IMG/VR virus record: IMGVR_UViG_3300012351_000032
Span: 1 to 20,897 of that record
DNA: 20,897 bases
Direction: 5' to 3' (one strand)
Source: a virus
The translations under genes and the position numbers were made by a program. The notes under the pieces are model-generated. The model was not told the DNA's origin. It was given only the letters and a program-made list of their open reading frames with translations, and made no database searches. Shown piece after piece: positions 11,469 to 18,591 of the stretch (the stretch's first letter is position 1; the number at the start of each line of letters is the position of its first letter).

Positions 11469-11710
11469 CGTCTGTCGCTGAGCGCGTGCCGCTGGACCGG
11501 ATCGGCCGGCGCGCCCGTGCCGCCCGCCCGGGCCGCACCGTCCTGGCGGTGGTCGCGTCGGTGCTGTTCGGCCTGGGCTGGCTGGCGTACCGGGCGTGCG
11601 CGGTGGCGTGGCTTGCTGCCGCGTGGTGCGGCTGCGCGGTGATCGAGGGCTGGCAGGAGGCCCGCAGGGCCGAGGCTGTGCGGAGGGCCCGTGCCGGGCG
11701 TCCTGGATAG
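11465..11710 (+). CDS. Small two-helix membrane protein
   Basis: 81 residues: a basic start (RVPLDRIGRRARAARPGR), then TVLAVVASVLFGLGWLAYRA and CAVAWLAAAWCGCAVIEGW as two predicted membrane segments, and a basic Arg-rich end. It overlaps the endonuclease stop (ATGA) and the portal start. A membrane protein between terminase and portal is not a standard virion part; if not a holin-like or exclusion protein, it may be a passenger that came with the endonuclease, although its GC-rich codons match the phage. Confidence 0.6.
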   Translation: MTSVAERVPLDRIGRRARAARPGRTVLAVVASVLFGLGWLAYRACAVAWLAAAWCGCAVIEGWQEARRAEAVRRARAGRPG

Positions 11711-13100
11711 GGTCAGCGCACGGTTCGCGGCGGCGCGTGGCAGGCCGCAGGCGAGCCTGTCGATGGACGAGTACGCCAGCTGGTTCTCGTACGGCGGGAT
11801 GCAGTACCCGCTGCTGCAGACGACGTACAGCACGATCGACCAGGAACGGATCTCGGTCACCGCGGCGCATGCGGCGAAGACGTCGGGGCCGGTGTTCGCG
11901 CTGGTCCTGGCCCGGATGCAGGTGTTCAGCCAGATCCGGTTCGCGTGGACCCGGATGCAGGGCAGCCAGCCCGGGGACCTGTTCGGCACGGCCGAGCTGA
12001 AGCCGCTGGAGACGCCGTGGCCGGGCGGGGTCACGGCGGACCTGCTGGCCCGGATGGAGTGGGACGCGTCCGCGGCGGGGCAGGCGTACATCCGCCGCAA
12101 GGGGCCTAACCTGCACCGGCTGAACCCGTCGTGGGTGATCATCGTCATGGGCTCGGCCGAGGACGCGCCGAACCCGCAGATGGCGGCCGACACGACCGTC
12201 GCGGGGTACCTGTGGGTGCCGCCGGGCGGCAAGCCTCGCTTTTTCCAGCCGTCGCAGGTCGCCCATTACGCGCCTCTGCCGGACCCGGACGCGCATTTCC
12301 TGGGCATGTCCTGGATCACGCCGGTGCTGCGGGAGCTGCAGGGCGACCAGGCGTCCACTGAGCACAAGTGGCGGTTCTTCGAGAACAGCGCCACGCCGAA
12401 CCTGGCGATCAAGTTCGACCCGGCGGTCACGATCGACGCGGTGCGCGCCTTCAAGGAGCTGCTCGAGGAGGAGCACCGAGGCGTCGCGAACGCGTTCAAG
12501 ACCCTGTACCTGGGCGGCGGCGCTGACCCGGTGACGGTCGGCAGCAGCTTTAAGGACATGGACTACGCCGTCGTCCAGGGCCGCGCGGAGTCGCGGCTGG
12601 CGGCGGCGGCGGGCGTCCCGCCGAGCTGGGTCGGGTTCGCCGAGGGGCTGCAGGGGAGCTCGCTGAACGCCGGGAACTTCGACAGCGCCCGGCGGCGCCT
12701 GTCGGACGGCACCTGCGTGCACCTGTGGGGCAATGCCTCATCGTCGCTGGAGCCGATCCTGGACCGGCCGCGTGACAAGCGCGGTGCCCCGGTGCTGGGC
12801 GCGAACCTCTGGTACGACGACCGGATCCCGTTCATGCGGCAGGACGCGACGGACCGGGCAGGCATCCAGGCGCAGGAGGCGTCCACGATCGCGCTGCTGA
12901 TCCGTGACGGGTTCACCCCGGAGTCCGCGGTGAAGGCCGTGAGTAACAACGACTGGAAGCTGCTGGTCCACTCGGGGCTCACGTCGGTGCAGCTGGTCCC
13001 GCCGAGTTCCGGCGCTGAGCCGCTGCCCGGCTTCGCGCCAGGGCAGGCCGGGCAGGCACCGGCAGTGCCGGCATCGAACGGGAACGGAGCGCGCCCATGA
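11691..13100 (+). CDS. Portal protein (HK97 family)
   Basis: 469 residues, the usual length. After a short leader come AKTSGPVFALVLARMQVFSQ, a central region with AGYLWVPPGGKPRFFQPSQV, then AHYAPLPDPDAHFLGMSWIT and PVLRELQGDQASTEHKWRFF, which is the portal pattern (P-L-x-x-A...E...F-x-x-G/N). AESRLAAAAGVPPSWVGFAE and GNFDSARRRLSDGT complete the stem/wing region. The product forms the 12-subunit ring at one capsid vertex through which DNA enters and leaves, and binds terminase and connector. GTG 11691 has CGGAGGG immediately upstream and overlaps the membrane gene. The disordered Pro/Gly/Ala tail is common. Confidence 0.9.
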   Translation: MPGVLDRVSARFAAARGRPQASLSMDEYASWFSYGGMQYPLLQTTYSTIDQERISVTAAHAAKTSGPVFALVLARMQVFSQIRFAWTRMQGSQPGDLFGTAELKPLETPWPGGVTADLLARMEWDASAAGQAYIRRKGPNLHRLNPSWVIIVMGSAEDAPNPQMAADTTVAGYLWVPPGGKPRFFQPSQVAHYAPLPDPDAHFLGMSWITPVLRELQGDQASTEHKWRFFENSATPNLAIKFDPAVTIDAVRAFKELLEEEHRGVANAFKTLYLGGGADPVTVGSSFKDMDYAVVQGRAESRLAAAAGVPPSWVGFAEGLQGSSLNAGNFDSARRRLSDGTCVHLWGNASSSLEPILDRPRDKRGAPVLGANLWYDDRIPFMRQDATDRAGIQAQEASTIALLIRDGFTPESAVKAVSNNDWKLLVHSGLTSVQLVPPSSGAEPLPGFAPGQAGQAPAVPASNGNGARP

Positions 13101-15730
13101 CACGCACGCGCCAGCAGCGTGACGGTGACGGCAGCTGGTACCGGATCAGTAACCAGGCGGACGGTCCCGCGCAGATCATGATGTATGACCTGATCGGCAT
13201 GTGGGGTGTCACCGCGAAAGACTTCATCCGGGACCTCGCCGCCATCGACGGCCCCGTCGACATCCATATCAACAGCGACGGCGGGGACGTCTTCGAGAGT
13301 TTCGCGATCTACTCGGCTCTCGCGTCCCGGCCGGGCGTCACCACCGTGGTCGACGGCATCGCCGCGAGCTCGGCGTCGCTGATCGCGATGGCGGGCGAGA
13401 CGCGGCTGATGGCGAAGACCAGCCAGATGATGATCCACGACGCGTGGGCCGGGGTCGACGGGAACGCCGATGACCTGCAGCACATGATCGGGCGGCTGGA
13501 GACCGTGTCCGGGCAGATCGCGCAGGTGTACGCGGACACGGCGGGCGGCACCCCGGATAACTGGCGTGCCCTGATGAAGGCGGAGACGTGGTTCACCCCG
13601 GAGCAGGCCATGGCCGCCGGGCTGGCCACCGGCATCACCGGGACGGCCCGGGAGCCTGCCCGCGCGGGTGCTGGCCAGACCGCGGCGGCGGCGCGGTCCG
13701 GGGCGGTCCTGGCGGCCGCGGCGTGGGATCCGGACGGCGACGGGGATGACGACTCGACGCCGGAGGGTGACACCGACCACAGCCACTGGGCGGCGGACGG
13801 GACGCAGAAGAAGTCCGTGCCGGGCAAGCCGGTGCCCGGCCAGCCGCCCGCGGACTCGATCGCGGCGGCCAGCGTCGATGAGTCGGCGTGGGACGGGAAC
13901 GCGGCCATGTCGGCGTGCACGTCCGGGTCGGACTACGCCGCGATCTGCGCCGGGCGCAAGGCCGGCCCGCCGGATGAGCGCGGGTCGTACGCGCTGCCGC
14001 ATCACAAGCACCCGGGCGACCCGCCGAACGCGGCGGGCACCAGGAACGCCAAGGCTAGGCTCCCGCAGACGCAGGGCCTGACGAACCGGGCCGAGGCGGA
14101 GGCGCACCTCGATGCGCACATGAAATCGGTCAGCCCCGGCGGCCAGGCAGCCGGGTCAGCAGCATCAGCAGCGGCGGTCGCGCCGTCAGCCAGGGAAGGA
14201 AGGCAAGGCATGGGCAACGACGACGGCCCGCTGACCATCGAGGGGCGGCGGTCCAGGATCGCGGAGATCGAGGGACGCTGCCGGGAGGTCATGGCGTCCT
14301 ACCCGGCGTCGGTGTTCCCCGCTGACGTGCAGACCGAGTGGGACCGGCTGGTCATCGAGAGCCGGGAGCACCGCCACGCGCTGGAGGCGGTCGACGCGCG
14401 CAACGCTGACCTCGCGCAGATGTACGCGGCCAGCCCCGCCAGCCACGACGCGTCCCGGCCGCAGGGCGGCGGGAACGGGAACGGCGCCCCGCAGCCGCAG
14501 CGGTTCGGCGCGCCGGCCGTCCACATCCGCCACGACATCTACGACCTGGTCGCGATCCAGCAGGCGGCCCGCAACCGGGACGAGCTGCCGGGCCTGTACC
14601 GCGACAACGCGCTGCGGGCCATCGAGCAGCACCGGTTCCCCGGCTCCCCGTCCCGGGAGGCCGCGCAGGCCAGCGTGGCGAAGCTGCTCGACACCGTGAA
14701 CGACGACAAGTACGGGGAGCTGCCGAAGCGGATCCTGGCGACCGGGTCCCCCGCCTACACCCGGGTGTTCGGCCACGCCCTGCAGGTGGGGAACCCCGGC
14801 GCGCTCGGCAGCGAGGACAGCCGGATCCTGGCCCTGGGCGAGTCCCCGGACACCGCCGGCGGTTATGCCGTGCCGTTCCAATTGGACCCGACCATCATCC
14901 TGACGTCCTCCGGCGGGGTGTCGCCGCTGCGGGACATCTCCCGGGTGGAGAAGATCGTCGGGAAGGAATACGACCTGGTCACCTCAGCCGGGGTGACCGC
15001 CCACCGGGTCGCCGAGGCCGCCCCGAACGTGGACGACTCGCCGGTCCTGGCGCAGCCGACGGTGCGGGCCAACCGGGTGCAGGGGTTCGTGCCGTTCTCC
15101 GTCGAGCTGGAAGGCGACTGGAACGCGCTGCAGTCCCAGATGCTTGCCTTGCTCGCGGACGCGAAGGCCCTGGAGGAGGCTGACGCGGGCGGCGCCACGA
15201 CCGGGTTCTTCCTCGGCACCGGCGTCGCGCCGCAGGCGGGCGGGATCATCACCACCCTGGTGGCGGGCAGCCAGGTCACCTCGGGCACGGTCGCGACGTT
15301 CGCGCTGGCCGACATCTTCAAGGTCAAGAACGCGCTCGGGAACAGGTTCCGGCCCCGCGGCCAGTGGGTGGCCAACTCCTCGATCTACGACCTGTGCCGC
15401 CAGTTCGGCACGTCGATCGCGAATATCTGGGCCGAGTCGCTGCAGGCGGGCGTCCCGTCCAGGCTGATCGGCTACCCGGTGAACGAGGGCACCGCGATGG
15501 CGGCCACCACCACGACCGGGTCGCTGAACCTGCTGTTCGGCGCGTTCGACCAGTACCTGATCGTGGACCGGGTCGGGATGAACATGGAACTGGTGCCCCA
15601 GCTGTTCCGGCAGCAGACCGCCGGCGCCGGGTTCGGGCTGCCCACCGGGCAGCGCGGGTATTTCGCCTGGTGGCGGAACAATGCGGTGATCCTGAACCAG
15701 AACGCGTTCCGCCTGCTGAAGATCCAGTAA
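13097..15730 (+). CDS. Prohead protease fused to major capsid protein
   Basis: 877 residues in one uninterrupted frame. Residues about 25-190 are a ClpP-type serine protease: INSDGGDVFES (59-69), catalytic Ser91 in IAASSASLIAMAG and His114 in MIHDAW. Residues about 261-345 hold a segment known from other actinophage proteases (DESAWDGNAAMSAC, YALPHHKHPGDPPNAAGTRN). From residue 372 a normal capsid precursor follows: a charged helical scaffold-like region (IEGRRSRIAEIEGRCREVMA), then the HK97 shell from GYAVPFQLDP (589) through GVTAHRVAEAAP and FGAFDQYLIVDRVGMNMELV to the end. The protease would cleave the scaffold domain and itself after assembly. The fusion places the scissile region between the two activities. 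The start overlaps the portal stop (ATGA). Confidence 0.88.
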   Translation: MTRTRQQRDGDGSWYRISNQADGPAQIMMYDLIGMWGVTAKDFIRDLAAIDGPVDIHINSDGGDVFESFAIYSALASRPGVTTVVDGIAASSASLIAMAGETRLMAKTSQMMIHDAWAGVDGNADDLQHMIGRLETVSGQIAQVYADTAGGTPDNWRALMKAETWFTPEQAMAAGLATGITGTAREPARAGAGQTAAAARSGAVLAAAAWDPDGDGDDDSTPEGDTDHSHWAADGTQKKSVPGKPVPGQPPADSIAAASVDESAWDGNAAMSACTSGSDYAAICAGRKAGPPDERGSYALPHHKHPGDPPNAAGTRNAKARLPQTQGLTNRAEAEAHLDAHMKSVSPGGQAAGSAASAAAVAPSAREGRQGMGNDDGPLTIEGRRSRIAEIEGRCREVMASYPASVFPADVQTEWDRLVIESREHRHALEAVDARNADLAQMYAASPASHDASRPQGGGNGNGAPQPQRFGAPAVHIRHDIYDLVAIQQAARNRDELPGLYRDNALRAIEQHRFPGSPSREAAQASVAKLLDTVNDDKYGELPKRILATGSPAYTRVFGHALQVGNPGALGSEDSRILALGESPDTAGGYAVPFQLDPTIILTSSGGVSPLRDISRVEKIVGKEYDLVTSAGVTAHRVAEAAPNVDDSPVLAQPTVRANRVQGFVPFSVELEGDWNALQSQMLALLADAKALEEADAGGATTGFFLGTGVAPQAGGIITTLVAGSQVTSGTVATFALADIFKVKNALGNRFRPRGQWVANSSIYDLCRQFGTSIANIWAESLQAGVPSRLIGYPVNEGTAMAATTTTGSLNLLFGAFDQYLIVDRVGMNMELVPQLFRQQTAGAGFGLPTGQRGYFAWWRNNAVILNQNAFRLLKIQ
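14193..14212 (+). promoter_or_regulatory. Strong internal ribosome binding site for the capsid protein
   Basis: GGGAAGGAAGG (14193-14203) precedes the in-frame ATG at 14210 by six bases inside the fused gene. Its quality exceeds that of most gene starts in the window, and it lies exactly where the capsid precursor would normally begin. Confidence 0.65.
14210..15730 (+). CDS. Major capsid protein from internal start (nested, 506 residues)
   Basis: Starting at ATG 14210 the same frame yields MGNDDGPLTIEGRRSRIAEI..., a complete HK97-type capsid precursor: about 190 residues of helical scaffold/delta domain and linker (rich in Gly/Asn/Pro around GGGNGNGAPQPQRF), then the shell domain to the stop. 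The length matches ordinary HK97-like capsid proteins. Use of this start would supply many free capsid subunits while the full-length fusion supplies a few protease-linked ones. That ratio is inference, by analogy with the nested protease/scaffold genes C and Nu3 of phage lambda; the presence of start and ribosome site is seen directly. Confidence 0.7.
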   Translation: MGNDDGPLTIEGRRSRIAEIEGRCREVMASYPASVFPADVQTEWDRLVIESREHRHALEAVDARNADLAQMYAASPASHDASRPQGGGNGNGAPQPQRFGAPAVHIRHDIYDLVAIQQAARNRDELPGLYRDNALRAIEQHRFPGSPSREAAQASVAKLLDTVNDDKYGELPKRILATGSPAYTRVFGHALQVGNPGALGSEDSRILALGESPDTAGGYAVPFQLDPTIILTSSGGVSPLRDISRVEKIVGKEYDLVTSAGVTAHRVAEAAPNVDDSPVLAQPTVRANRVQGFVPFSVELEGDWNALQSQMLALLADAKALEEADAGGATTGFFLGTGVAPQAGGIITTLVAGSQVTSGTVATFALADIFKVKNALGNRFRPRGQWVANSSIYDLCRQFGTSIANIWAESLQAGVPSRLIGYPVNEGTAMAATTTTGSLNLLFGAFDQYLIVDRVGMNMELVPQLFRQQTAGAGFGLPTGQRGYFAWWRNNAVILNQNAFRLLKIQ

Positions 15731-17481: not shown

Positions 17482-18591
17482 GTGGCTGACCAGCAGTCAC
17501 GCACCTTCCTGTACCAGCGCCGGGCACAGTCCGCGCCGCCGCCGCGGTCCCCGTCACCAGCGCCGCCGCTCCCGGCCGCGGCGCAGTCGCCCAGCCTGCT
17601 GCAGCACTCGCTGCCCCAGTCGCCCCAGTCGCCGCCGCTGACGGCCGTCTACACCGGGCTGTATCCCCAGGTGTACGGGGGGCAGCTGCCCCCCCCGGGG
17701 CAGCGGCCGCAGAACTCGGCCTTCCTGCTGCAGCGGGGCATGGCGCAGCAGCCGCAGTCACCCCAGATCCCGGGAGTCCCGCCGCCGGGGCCGGCCCCGG
17801 CGCAGTCGCCCGGCCTCCTGCGGCTGGGCCTGCCCCAGCAGGCACCGTCGCCGCAGCTGCCGGGGCTGCCCCCGCCGCTCCCCGCACCGCAGCAGGCAGT
17901 CACCCTGCTGCAGCAGGGCATGGCGCAGCAGCCGCAGTCACCCCAGCTGCCCGCTGGTCCCGCGCCGGTGCCCGCACCGCAGCAGAGCGCCATCCTGCTC
18001 CGGCTGGGCCTGCCGCAGTCGCCGCCGTCGCCCCGGCTGCCCCCCGCGGCGGTCATGCCGCCGCCGCCGCCCGGCGCTCAGGCCGCACAGTCGCTGACGC
18101 TGCTGCAGCAGGGCATGGCCATGCCGGGGCACTTCGCACAGCTGCCCCCCGCGGCGGCCATGCCGCCGTCCCTGGTCCCGGCCGGGGCGCAGTCGCCCAG
18201 CCTGCTGCGGCGGGGAATGGCCGTCGCGGGGCACTTCGCACAGCTGCCCCCCGTGGTGGCGGCGTTCCCGCAGCCGCAGCCGCAGCCGCCCGCGGCGCTC
18301 ACCCTGCTGCGGTGGCCGCCCACGTTCCCGCTGATCAGCTCGGCACCGCTCATCGTCCCGCCGCCACCGGCCACCTACGGGACCGCCCGGCAGGGCACCA
18401 TGACCATCCCGGGCACCGCCGCGGGGCAGTCTGCGGCCGCGCACGCTCAATCCGGGACCGGGGGCGACGCAGCGGCCTACGGGCCGGCCTACGAGCCGGC
18501 CTACGGGTCAGGGACGGGACACGCGCAAGCCGGGCAGATGAACGTCCCGGCCGCCCGGGACGGGCAGATGACGCTGCCCCGCGCACAGTGA
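17482..18591 (+). CDS. Pro/Gln-rich repeat protein
   Basis: 369 residues from GTG 17482 after a duplicated GCCGGGAGG segment. About eight degenerate repeats of 29-40 residues fill residues 30-290, each with an A-Q-S/x-x-x-L-L-x-x-G-M/L-x core followed by P-Q-S-P-Q-L-P and a Pro-rich spacer; two copies share LLQ-x-GMAQQPQSPQ almost exactly. Repeats begin near 17584, 17710, 17803, 17890, 17980, 18085, 18187 and 18292. The C-terminal 80 residues are Gly/Ala/Tyr-rich (AAYGPAYEPAYGSG). It has no Cys, signal peptide or membrane helix. Such a chain is probably extended, like a fibre shaft or flexible linker on the particle. No known family is recognised. Confidence 0.65.
   Translation: MADQQSRTFLYQRRAQSAPPPRSPSPAPPLPAAAQSPSLLQHSLPQSPQSPPLTAVYTGLYPQVYGGQLPPPGQRPQNSAFLLQRGMAQQPQSPQIPGVPPPGPAPAQSPGLLRLGLPQQAPSPQLPGLPPPLPAPQQAVTLLQQGMAQQPQSPQLPAGPAPVPAPQQSAILLRLGLPQSPPSPRLPPAAVMPPPPPGAQAAQSLTLLQQGMAMPGHFAQLPPAAAMPPSLVPAGAQSPSLLRRGMAVAGHFAQLPPVVAAFPQPQPQPPAALTLLRWPPTFPLISSAPLIVPPPPATYGTARQGTMTIPGTAAGQSAAAHAQSGTGGDAAAYGPAYEPAYGSGTGHAQAGQMNVPAARDGQMTLPRAQ
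17584..18330 (+). repeat. Degenerate 87-120-base coding repeats
   Basis: The segments containing CTGCTGCAGC-x-GGGCATGGC recur along the Pro/Gln-rich gene; the closest pair is at about 17726-17762 and 17909-17942, ending in CAGCAGCCGCAGTCACCCCAG in both. Unit lengths vary, suggesting growth by unequal recombination. Confidence 0.7.

Follow-up and report, generated by a model that had tools for sequence, protein, structure and literature searches.

A protease and a capsid precursor in one reading frame

The window (the whole stretch of 20,897 nucleotides analysed here) comes from a source described as a soil phage. Directly downstream of a portal protein gene (11691–13100, + strand; PF04860) lies an open reading frame of 877 codons plus stop (13097–15730, + strand) with no internal stop codon, whose start ATG overlaps the portal stop as ATGA. 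Protease and capsid share this one uninterrupted frame between the portal and the head–tail genes, the arrangement of a phage protease–capsid fusion.

The N-terminal part (aa 25–181; 13169–13639, + strand) is, by profile, a ClpP-type (S14) head maturation protease. Pfam CLP_protease (PF00574) matches aa 50–181 at 3.7e-26 (92.6 bits; cut-off 20.2), and the NCBIfam head maturation protease model NF045542 scores 153.9 bits, above its cut-off of 120. In alignments to the ClpP chains 3q7h and 6hwm, Ser91 and His114 coincide with the catalytic Ser and His, and both are invariant; the position of the catalytic Asp is occupied by an equally invariant Glu163. The C-terminal part is an HK97-fold major capsid domain (14858–15721, + strand): Phage_capsid (PF05065) matches aa 588–875 over profile positions 1–279 of 280 (3.7e-27, 95.9 bits; cut-off 24.2), TIGR01554 scores 126.1 bits against a cut-off of 27.5, and PDB entry 9lw6 is matched at 6.3e-61. 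The open reading frame, Pfam and NCBIfam thus agree with the sequence-only reading of this locus, which had proposed one 877-codon frame holding a ClpP-type protease and a complete HK97-type capsid precursor, with an internal start at 14210 (residue 372); both position and residue number are correct.

A nested open reading frame of 506 aa (14210–15730, + strand) begins at the in-frame ATG that encodes Met372 of the fusion. AlphaFold2 predicts a helical, delta-like N-terminal scaffold domain in its product (aa 1–74; 14210–14431, + strand), with helices at residues 10–30 and 38–74 (pLDDT about 72–87) and the remainder at low confidence. Since pLDDT was 40.8 for the protease–linker part and 46.3 for most of the capsid, the models were unfit for a fold search and only these two helices were used; they are as expected for an HK97-type scaffold domain.

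Two features occupy the linker. An acidic block, WDPDGDGDDDSTPEGDTDHSHW (13724–13789, + strand; aa 210–231), is conserved in most of the fused relatives, occurs in separate-gene relatives too, and had no Pfam match. It is more conserved than much of the protease and resembles calcium-binding DxDGDG loops. A module of about 85 aa (13880–14131, + strand; aa 262–345) is found in some fusions and absent from others (L009–L012, L089, L090). Elsewhere in the window, a Pro/Gln-rich open reading frame (17482–18591) contains degenerate 90- and 102-bp tandem repeats (17724–18312).

The internal start and its ribosome site

The ATG at 14210 sits between protease and capsid and is preceded by AGGGAAGGAAGGCAAGGC; the Shine–Dalgarno (SD)-like stretch is GGGAAGGAAGG (14193–14203, + strand). 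With an SD duplex energy of −12.0 kcal/mol it has the strongest site when compared with the 43 other in-frame ATG or GTG codons of the frame; the start of the fusion itself (ATG 13097) is weaker, with a 4-nt SD match and −8.5 kcal/mol. At 14210 the exact SD core match extends to at most 5 nt (AAGGA), not AGGAGG, and this length is also reached by 3 of the 43 other in-frame starts. The earlier description of the ribosome site as near-ideal is therefore slightly generous. A synonymous-codon test on the window alone is individually weak (p about 0.28 for duplex energy, 0.6 for exact match) because the sequence REGRQG that is encoded there calls for purine-rich codons in any case. Support for a nested start comes from the family, not from the SD statistics of the window.

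Conservation of the internal start among fused relatives

Loci of relatives were collected from IMG/VR and GTDB scans. Searching every frame of each locus with profiles for ClpP, S78/U35, two linker modules and the capsid yielded 27 distinct fused genes belonging to the window's capsid family, 18 with a ClpP protease and 9 with an S78 (HK97 gp4-like) protease, the latter confirmed by Pfam PF04586 in L082, L199, L179, L183 and L203. Capsid identity is 36–85% among aligned members. Streptomycetaceae genomes contain two of the ClpP fusions (L089, Streptomyces; L090, Actinacidiphila), which makes an actinobacterial host likely. Named phages with a homologous capsid are Rhodococcus REQ1, Madraxi and Shagrat, in which it is fused to S78, and Mycobacterium Brujita and Gordonia Bunnybear, in which the genes are separate; of the cultivable fused relatives, REQ1 and Madraxi come nearest in their capsids. 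A sequencing or assembly artefact is ruled out by the agreement of the 27 distinct fused loci, which come from many contigs, named phages and the two Streptomycetaceae genomes.

Every one of the 27 fused genes has an in-frame start codon at the homologous capsid N-terminus (ATG in 24, GTG in 3), nearly always preceded by a purine-rich SD; examples are GGAAGGAACGAC-ATG (L005), GAAGGAGAGCAGGCT-ATG (L008), GGAAAGGGAAACCCC-ATG (L010), AGGAGAGGAAGACC-GTG (L014) and AAAAGGAGCATCCCC-ATG (REQ1). Loss of this start in relatives, which would count against a nested gene, was looked for and seen in none. Of the 27 boundary starts, 19 follow an SD core match of 5 nt or more, compared with 8.6% of 513 other in-frame ATGs in the same frames (odds ratio 25; Fisher 1.4e-13), where the best SD was taken if the boundary window held several candidate starts and four starts were assigned by eye. 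The mean SD match at the boundary starts was not equalled in any of 3000 synonymous recodings (0/3000). The mRNA around the internal starts is locally unstructured: the folding z is +1.57 (25 of 27 positive) versus +0.06 at other in-frame ATGs (p 1.3e-10; as the 27 loci share ancestry, this and the other p-values for the family are optimistic). A chance start codon is ruled out by the SD enrichment, the synonymous null and the folding taken across the 27 genes.

The SD is encoded by differing peptides in differing codon phases (REGRQG, STGRND, LEGNQA, TEGEQA, NGKGNP, AAQEGST), which argues that a nucleotide signal rather than a peptide has been kept. Four loci (L084, L199, L203, L204) have no core SD match at strict spacing; in the last three, GGAGTGA lies slightly farther upstream of the internal start. 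In REQ1 and Madraxi the N-terminal start has the stronger site, the opposite of the window, so a simple ratio of SD strengths does not generalise. Comparative support for the predicted nested start is strong.

The gene break in separate-gene relatives

The sequence-only reading had also proposed aligning residue 372 with the break between separate protease and capsid genes, and relatives with separate genes do break at the homologous position. In Brujita (gp6/gp7) and Bunnybear (gp5/gp6), the capsid gene starts at the homologous boundary with a 4-nt overlap. These phages resemble the window in their homologous capsid (34–36% identity), gene order and break position, and differ from it in having separate genes in different frames and an S78-type protease. 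At 16 distinct loci the same ClpP–linker protease is a separate gene accompanied by a distant capsid, and there the protease ends 27–46 aa after the linker module; Met372 of the window lies 26 aa after it. Three loci (L206, L225, L233) have separate protease and capsid genes in one frame, the capsid ATG immediately following the protease stop; by sequence this arrangement is one substitution from a fusion. Read-through of the stop at these loci would also give a protease–capsid fusion.

Retention of the frame and exchange of the protease

The distance from the end of the protease to the internal start takes 25 distinct lengths among the 27 fused genes, from 34 to 469 aa, and the frame across this variable linker is never broken and contains no stop in any of them. 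If only the free capsid were needed, stop codons or frameshifts would be expected in so variable a linker, just as the genes are separate in some relatives. An open frame across 25 linker lengths suggests selection for the fusion as well, so that selection appears to keep both the fusion translatable and the internal start usable.

The acidic block behaves as a mobile module, being N-terminal of the protease in S78 relatives (L199, L200, L203, L204, L239). The module of about 85 aa is variously present or absent among close relatives, is duplicated in L210, L218, L226 and L240, and lies N-terminal of ClpP in L017. In L183 and L239, DUF6582 (PF20223) adjoins the acidic block and is possibly the same kind of module.

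On the capsid tree, whose root depends on very distant capsids, the fused genes group together with moderate support (86/86), and the ClpP-fused clade (98/95) is nested inside S78-fused lineages. Its sister pair, L179 and L183, has the S78 protease yet also carries the acidic block, and L179 carries the second linker module too. The most economical interpretation is a replacement of the protease within a fused frame, with linker, internal start and capsid retained. The nesting of the ClpP clade among S78 fusions indicates that the fusion and its internal start outlasted this presumed exchange.

Other protease–capsid fusions

In 15 S78 fusions of the SEA-PHAGES type, a core SD precedes the first ATG after the protease in 10 of 15 cases versus 27 of 97 other ATGs (p 0.005), and folding at this ATG is open (p 3e-5). 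Under a looser score, any 4-mer of the extended SD consensus, the comparison becomes 10 of 15 versus 43 of 97 (p 0.09), the scoring having been changed after the first result was seen. An extension of the nested start to unrelated S78 fusions is thus suggestive, on weaker evidence than that of the 27-locus family. Similar internal starts recur in the small-genome fusions of Arthrobacter, Microbacterium and Rhodococcus phages; PensacolaC28 has GTG instead of ATG after the protease, and in Camille and Count the ATG lies farther on. For the Arthrobacter and Microbacterium fusions, a PDB search for relatives that could have revealed a mature N-terminus returned none. An internal capsid start was looked for and not found in the fusions of Emperor and SallySpecial (L249, L254). 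In these two a membrane-like N-terminal domain is fused ahead of the S78–capsid protein; in SallySpecial a good SD-ATG precedes the protease, with none found before the capsid.

Among ClpP–capsid fusions of the NF045540 type from other hosts, an SD-ATG follows the protease in L027, L114, L138, L155 and L164. A further group of ClpP fusions of 634–678 aa (L043–L080) has a conserved Met (PHNM) in the unstructured A/C-rich context CATCACAGACACCACACAAC-ATG without an SD, perhaps an SD-independent internal start. In L178 (2429–6898), portal, ClpP protease and capsid profiles fall in one 1490-codon frame that keeps the internal capsid SD-ATG; this would be either a portal–protease–capsid fusion or a missing stop. 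In four loci (L070, L099, L109, L147) a ClpP protease–scaffold-like frame has a GTG or ATG start with an SD ahead of its scaffold-like part, an arrangement like that of lambda C/Nu3 but with ClpP as the protease.

Relation to known systems

In lambda, an in-frame start nested in the protease gene C yields the scaffold Nu3, and the capsid protein gpE is encoded by a separate gene. As in the window, the protease is an N-terminal extension of the nested product that it acts with, and in the window too, by sequence and conservation, the nested frame has an in-frame start and a ribosome site of its own within the protease gene. The nested product differs: in lambda it is a scaffold without a capsid fold, whereas the nested frame of the window comprises a scaffold domain and the whole HK97 capsid domain. 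In herpesvirus UL26/UL26.5, too, the protease extends the N-terminus of an assembly protein that is nested in frame; there, unlike in the window, the nested product is a scaffold made from its own transcript, and the capsid protein is separate.

Lambda C/Nu3 had been named as the nearest known logic, but the annotated 'major capsid and protease fusion proteins' and NF045540 are nearer. Protease–capsid fusions as such are known from SEA-PHAGES annotations (in passages of PMC7302621 and PMC5513430, the latter also mentioning a scaffold–protease fusion) and from NCBIfam NF045540 and NF045541. Like the window, the SEA-PHAGES fusions have protease, scaffold and HK97-like capsid in one frame between portal and connector genes, and most have an in-frame SD-ATG after the protease. 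Unlike the window, their protease is S78 (HK97 gp4-like), not ClpP, and most of their capsids are not homologous to its capsid by sequence, those of the Rhodococcus fusions being homologous at 35–39% identity. NF045540, 'ClpP-like prohead protease/major capsid protein fusion protein', shares with the window a ClpP-type protease fused in frame to a capsid, and its members L027, L164 and L114, together with the weaker matches L138 and L155, share the SD-ATG. The window scores 168.8 bits against this model, below the cut-off of 475, and matches profile positions 2–169 of 652, the protease part only; its capsid belongs to another family.

The passages describing fusions in PMC7302621 and PMC5513430 make no mention of a nested start, and no described internal capsid start was found in the open-licence papers searched, an absence that is weak evidence of novelty. 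These papers gave no description of a nested capsid start, of its conservation or of the apparent exchange of the protease beneath it; the fusion itself is not new.

A probable dual-start gene and the alternatives

The window has a fused frame with both domains, an internal start with an SD in open mRNA, conservation of these features across differing linkers and across the apparent exchange of the protease, and a gene break at the same place in relatives. We consider it probable (at roughly 0.7) that this is a dual-start gene giving a free capsid precursor and a protease–capsid fusion that co-assembles with it and delivers the protease into the prohead. Translation from ATG 13097 would give the protease–linker–capsid fusion, and initiation at ATG 14210 the plain precursor with its delta-like scaffold and HK97 fold. 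Copies of the fusion, presumably the minority, would co-assemble with free capsid through the common capsid part. In HK97 the N-terminal scaffold domain of the capsid protein points into the prohead (PMC10275583); by the same geometry the protease of the fusion would be placed inside, where it could cut off the scaffold domains and itself. The independently startable capsid gene of the sequence-only reading is upheld by the 27 conserved starts and the homologous gene break; two products, and a protease dose fixed by translation rates as that reading put forward, would be further steps, as would the unequal ratio, co-assembly and self-release.

The main alternative is a single polyprotein, in which the 877-aa fusion is the sole product, every capsid subunit bears a protease, and the capsid is released by self-cleavage at the junction, the internal ATG and SD being incidental. 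The open frame fits this, as does the annotation of the fusion as sole product in all named relatives, and cleavage is expected of ClpP-like head proteases. Yet such a polyprotein fails to predict a start codon, SD and open mRNA at the boundary across 27 of 27 loci, nor does it predict that the peptide changes around an SD that is kept, or that the boundary coincides with the place where separate capsid genes begin. With a protease on every subunit, the prohead interior would also contain it in great excess; we regard the polyprotein as unlikely. The internal start might instead persist by inertia after a recent fusion of two genes through loss of a stop codon, a step that L206, L225 and L233 are only one substitution away from taking. 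The fused genes form an ancient and varied group, with capsid identities as low as 36%, two protease folds and linkers of 34–469 aa; a start kept by inertia should by now have been lost from one or more of the 27, and such a relic seems highly improbable.

It could also be that the internal start alone matters for head assembly, with the protease, for example, releasing itself in the cytoplasm and never entering heads as a capsid subunit. Proteases from separate genes evidently work in relatives, and co-assembly of the fusion is a proposal of the model rather than an observation. The frame kept open over 25 linker lengths suggests that the covalent link is itself useful, and we give this possibility little weight, somewhat less than the polyprotein and more than the relic.

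Implications

If the annotated fusions were made as one protein, every shell subunit would bring its own protease. A conserved nested start would offer a way out, yielding from one gene mostly plain capsid and a minority of subunits that carry the protease inside; covalent attachment to the capsid is suggested as an alternative to non-covalent protease packaging. For hundreds of annotated phages this makes a testable prediction, a capsid precursor that starts at the internal Met. Whether nested dual-start expression is a general rule of phage protease–capsid fusions we would put at even odds: unrelated proteases (S78, ClpP) are joined to unrelated capsids, the internal capsid start appears repeatedly kept and the protease exchangeable, and covalent attachment to a minority of subunits would then serve as a protease-packaging device. 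Within the family of the window, one protease appears to have given way to a non-homologous one in a single frame that retained its nested gene.
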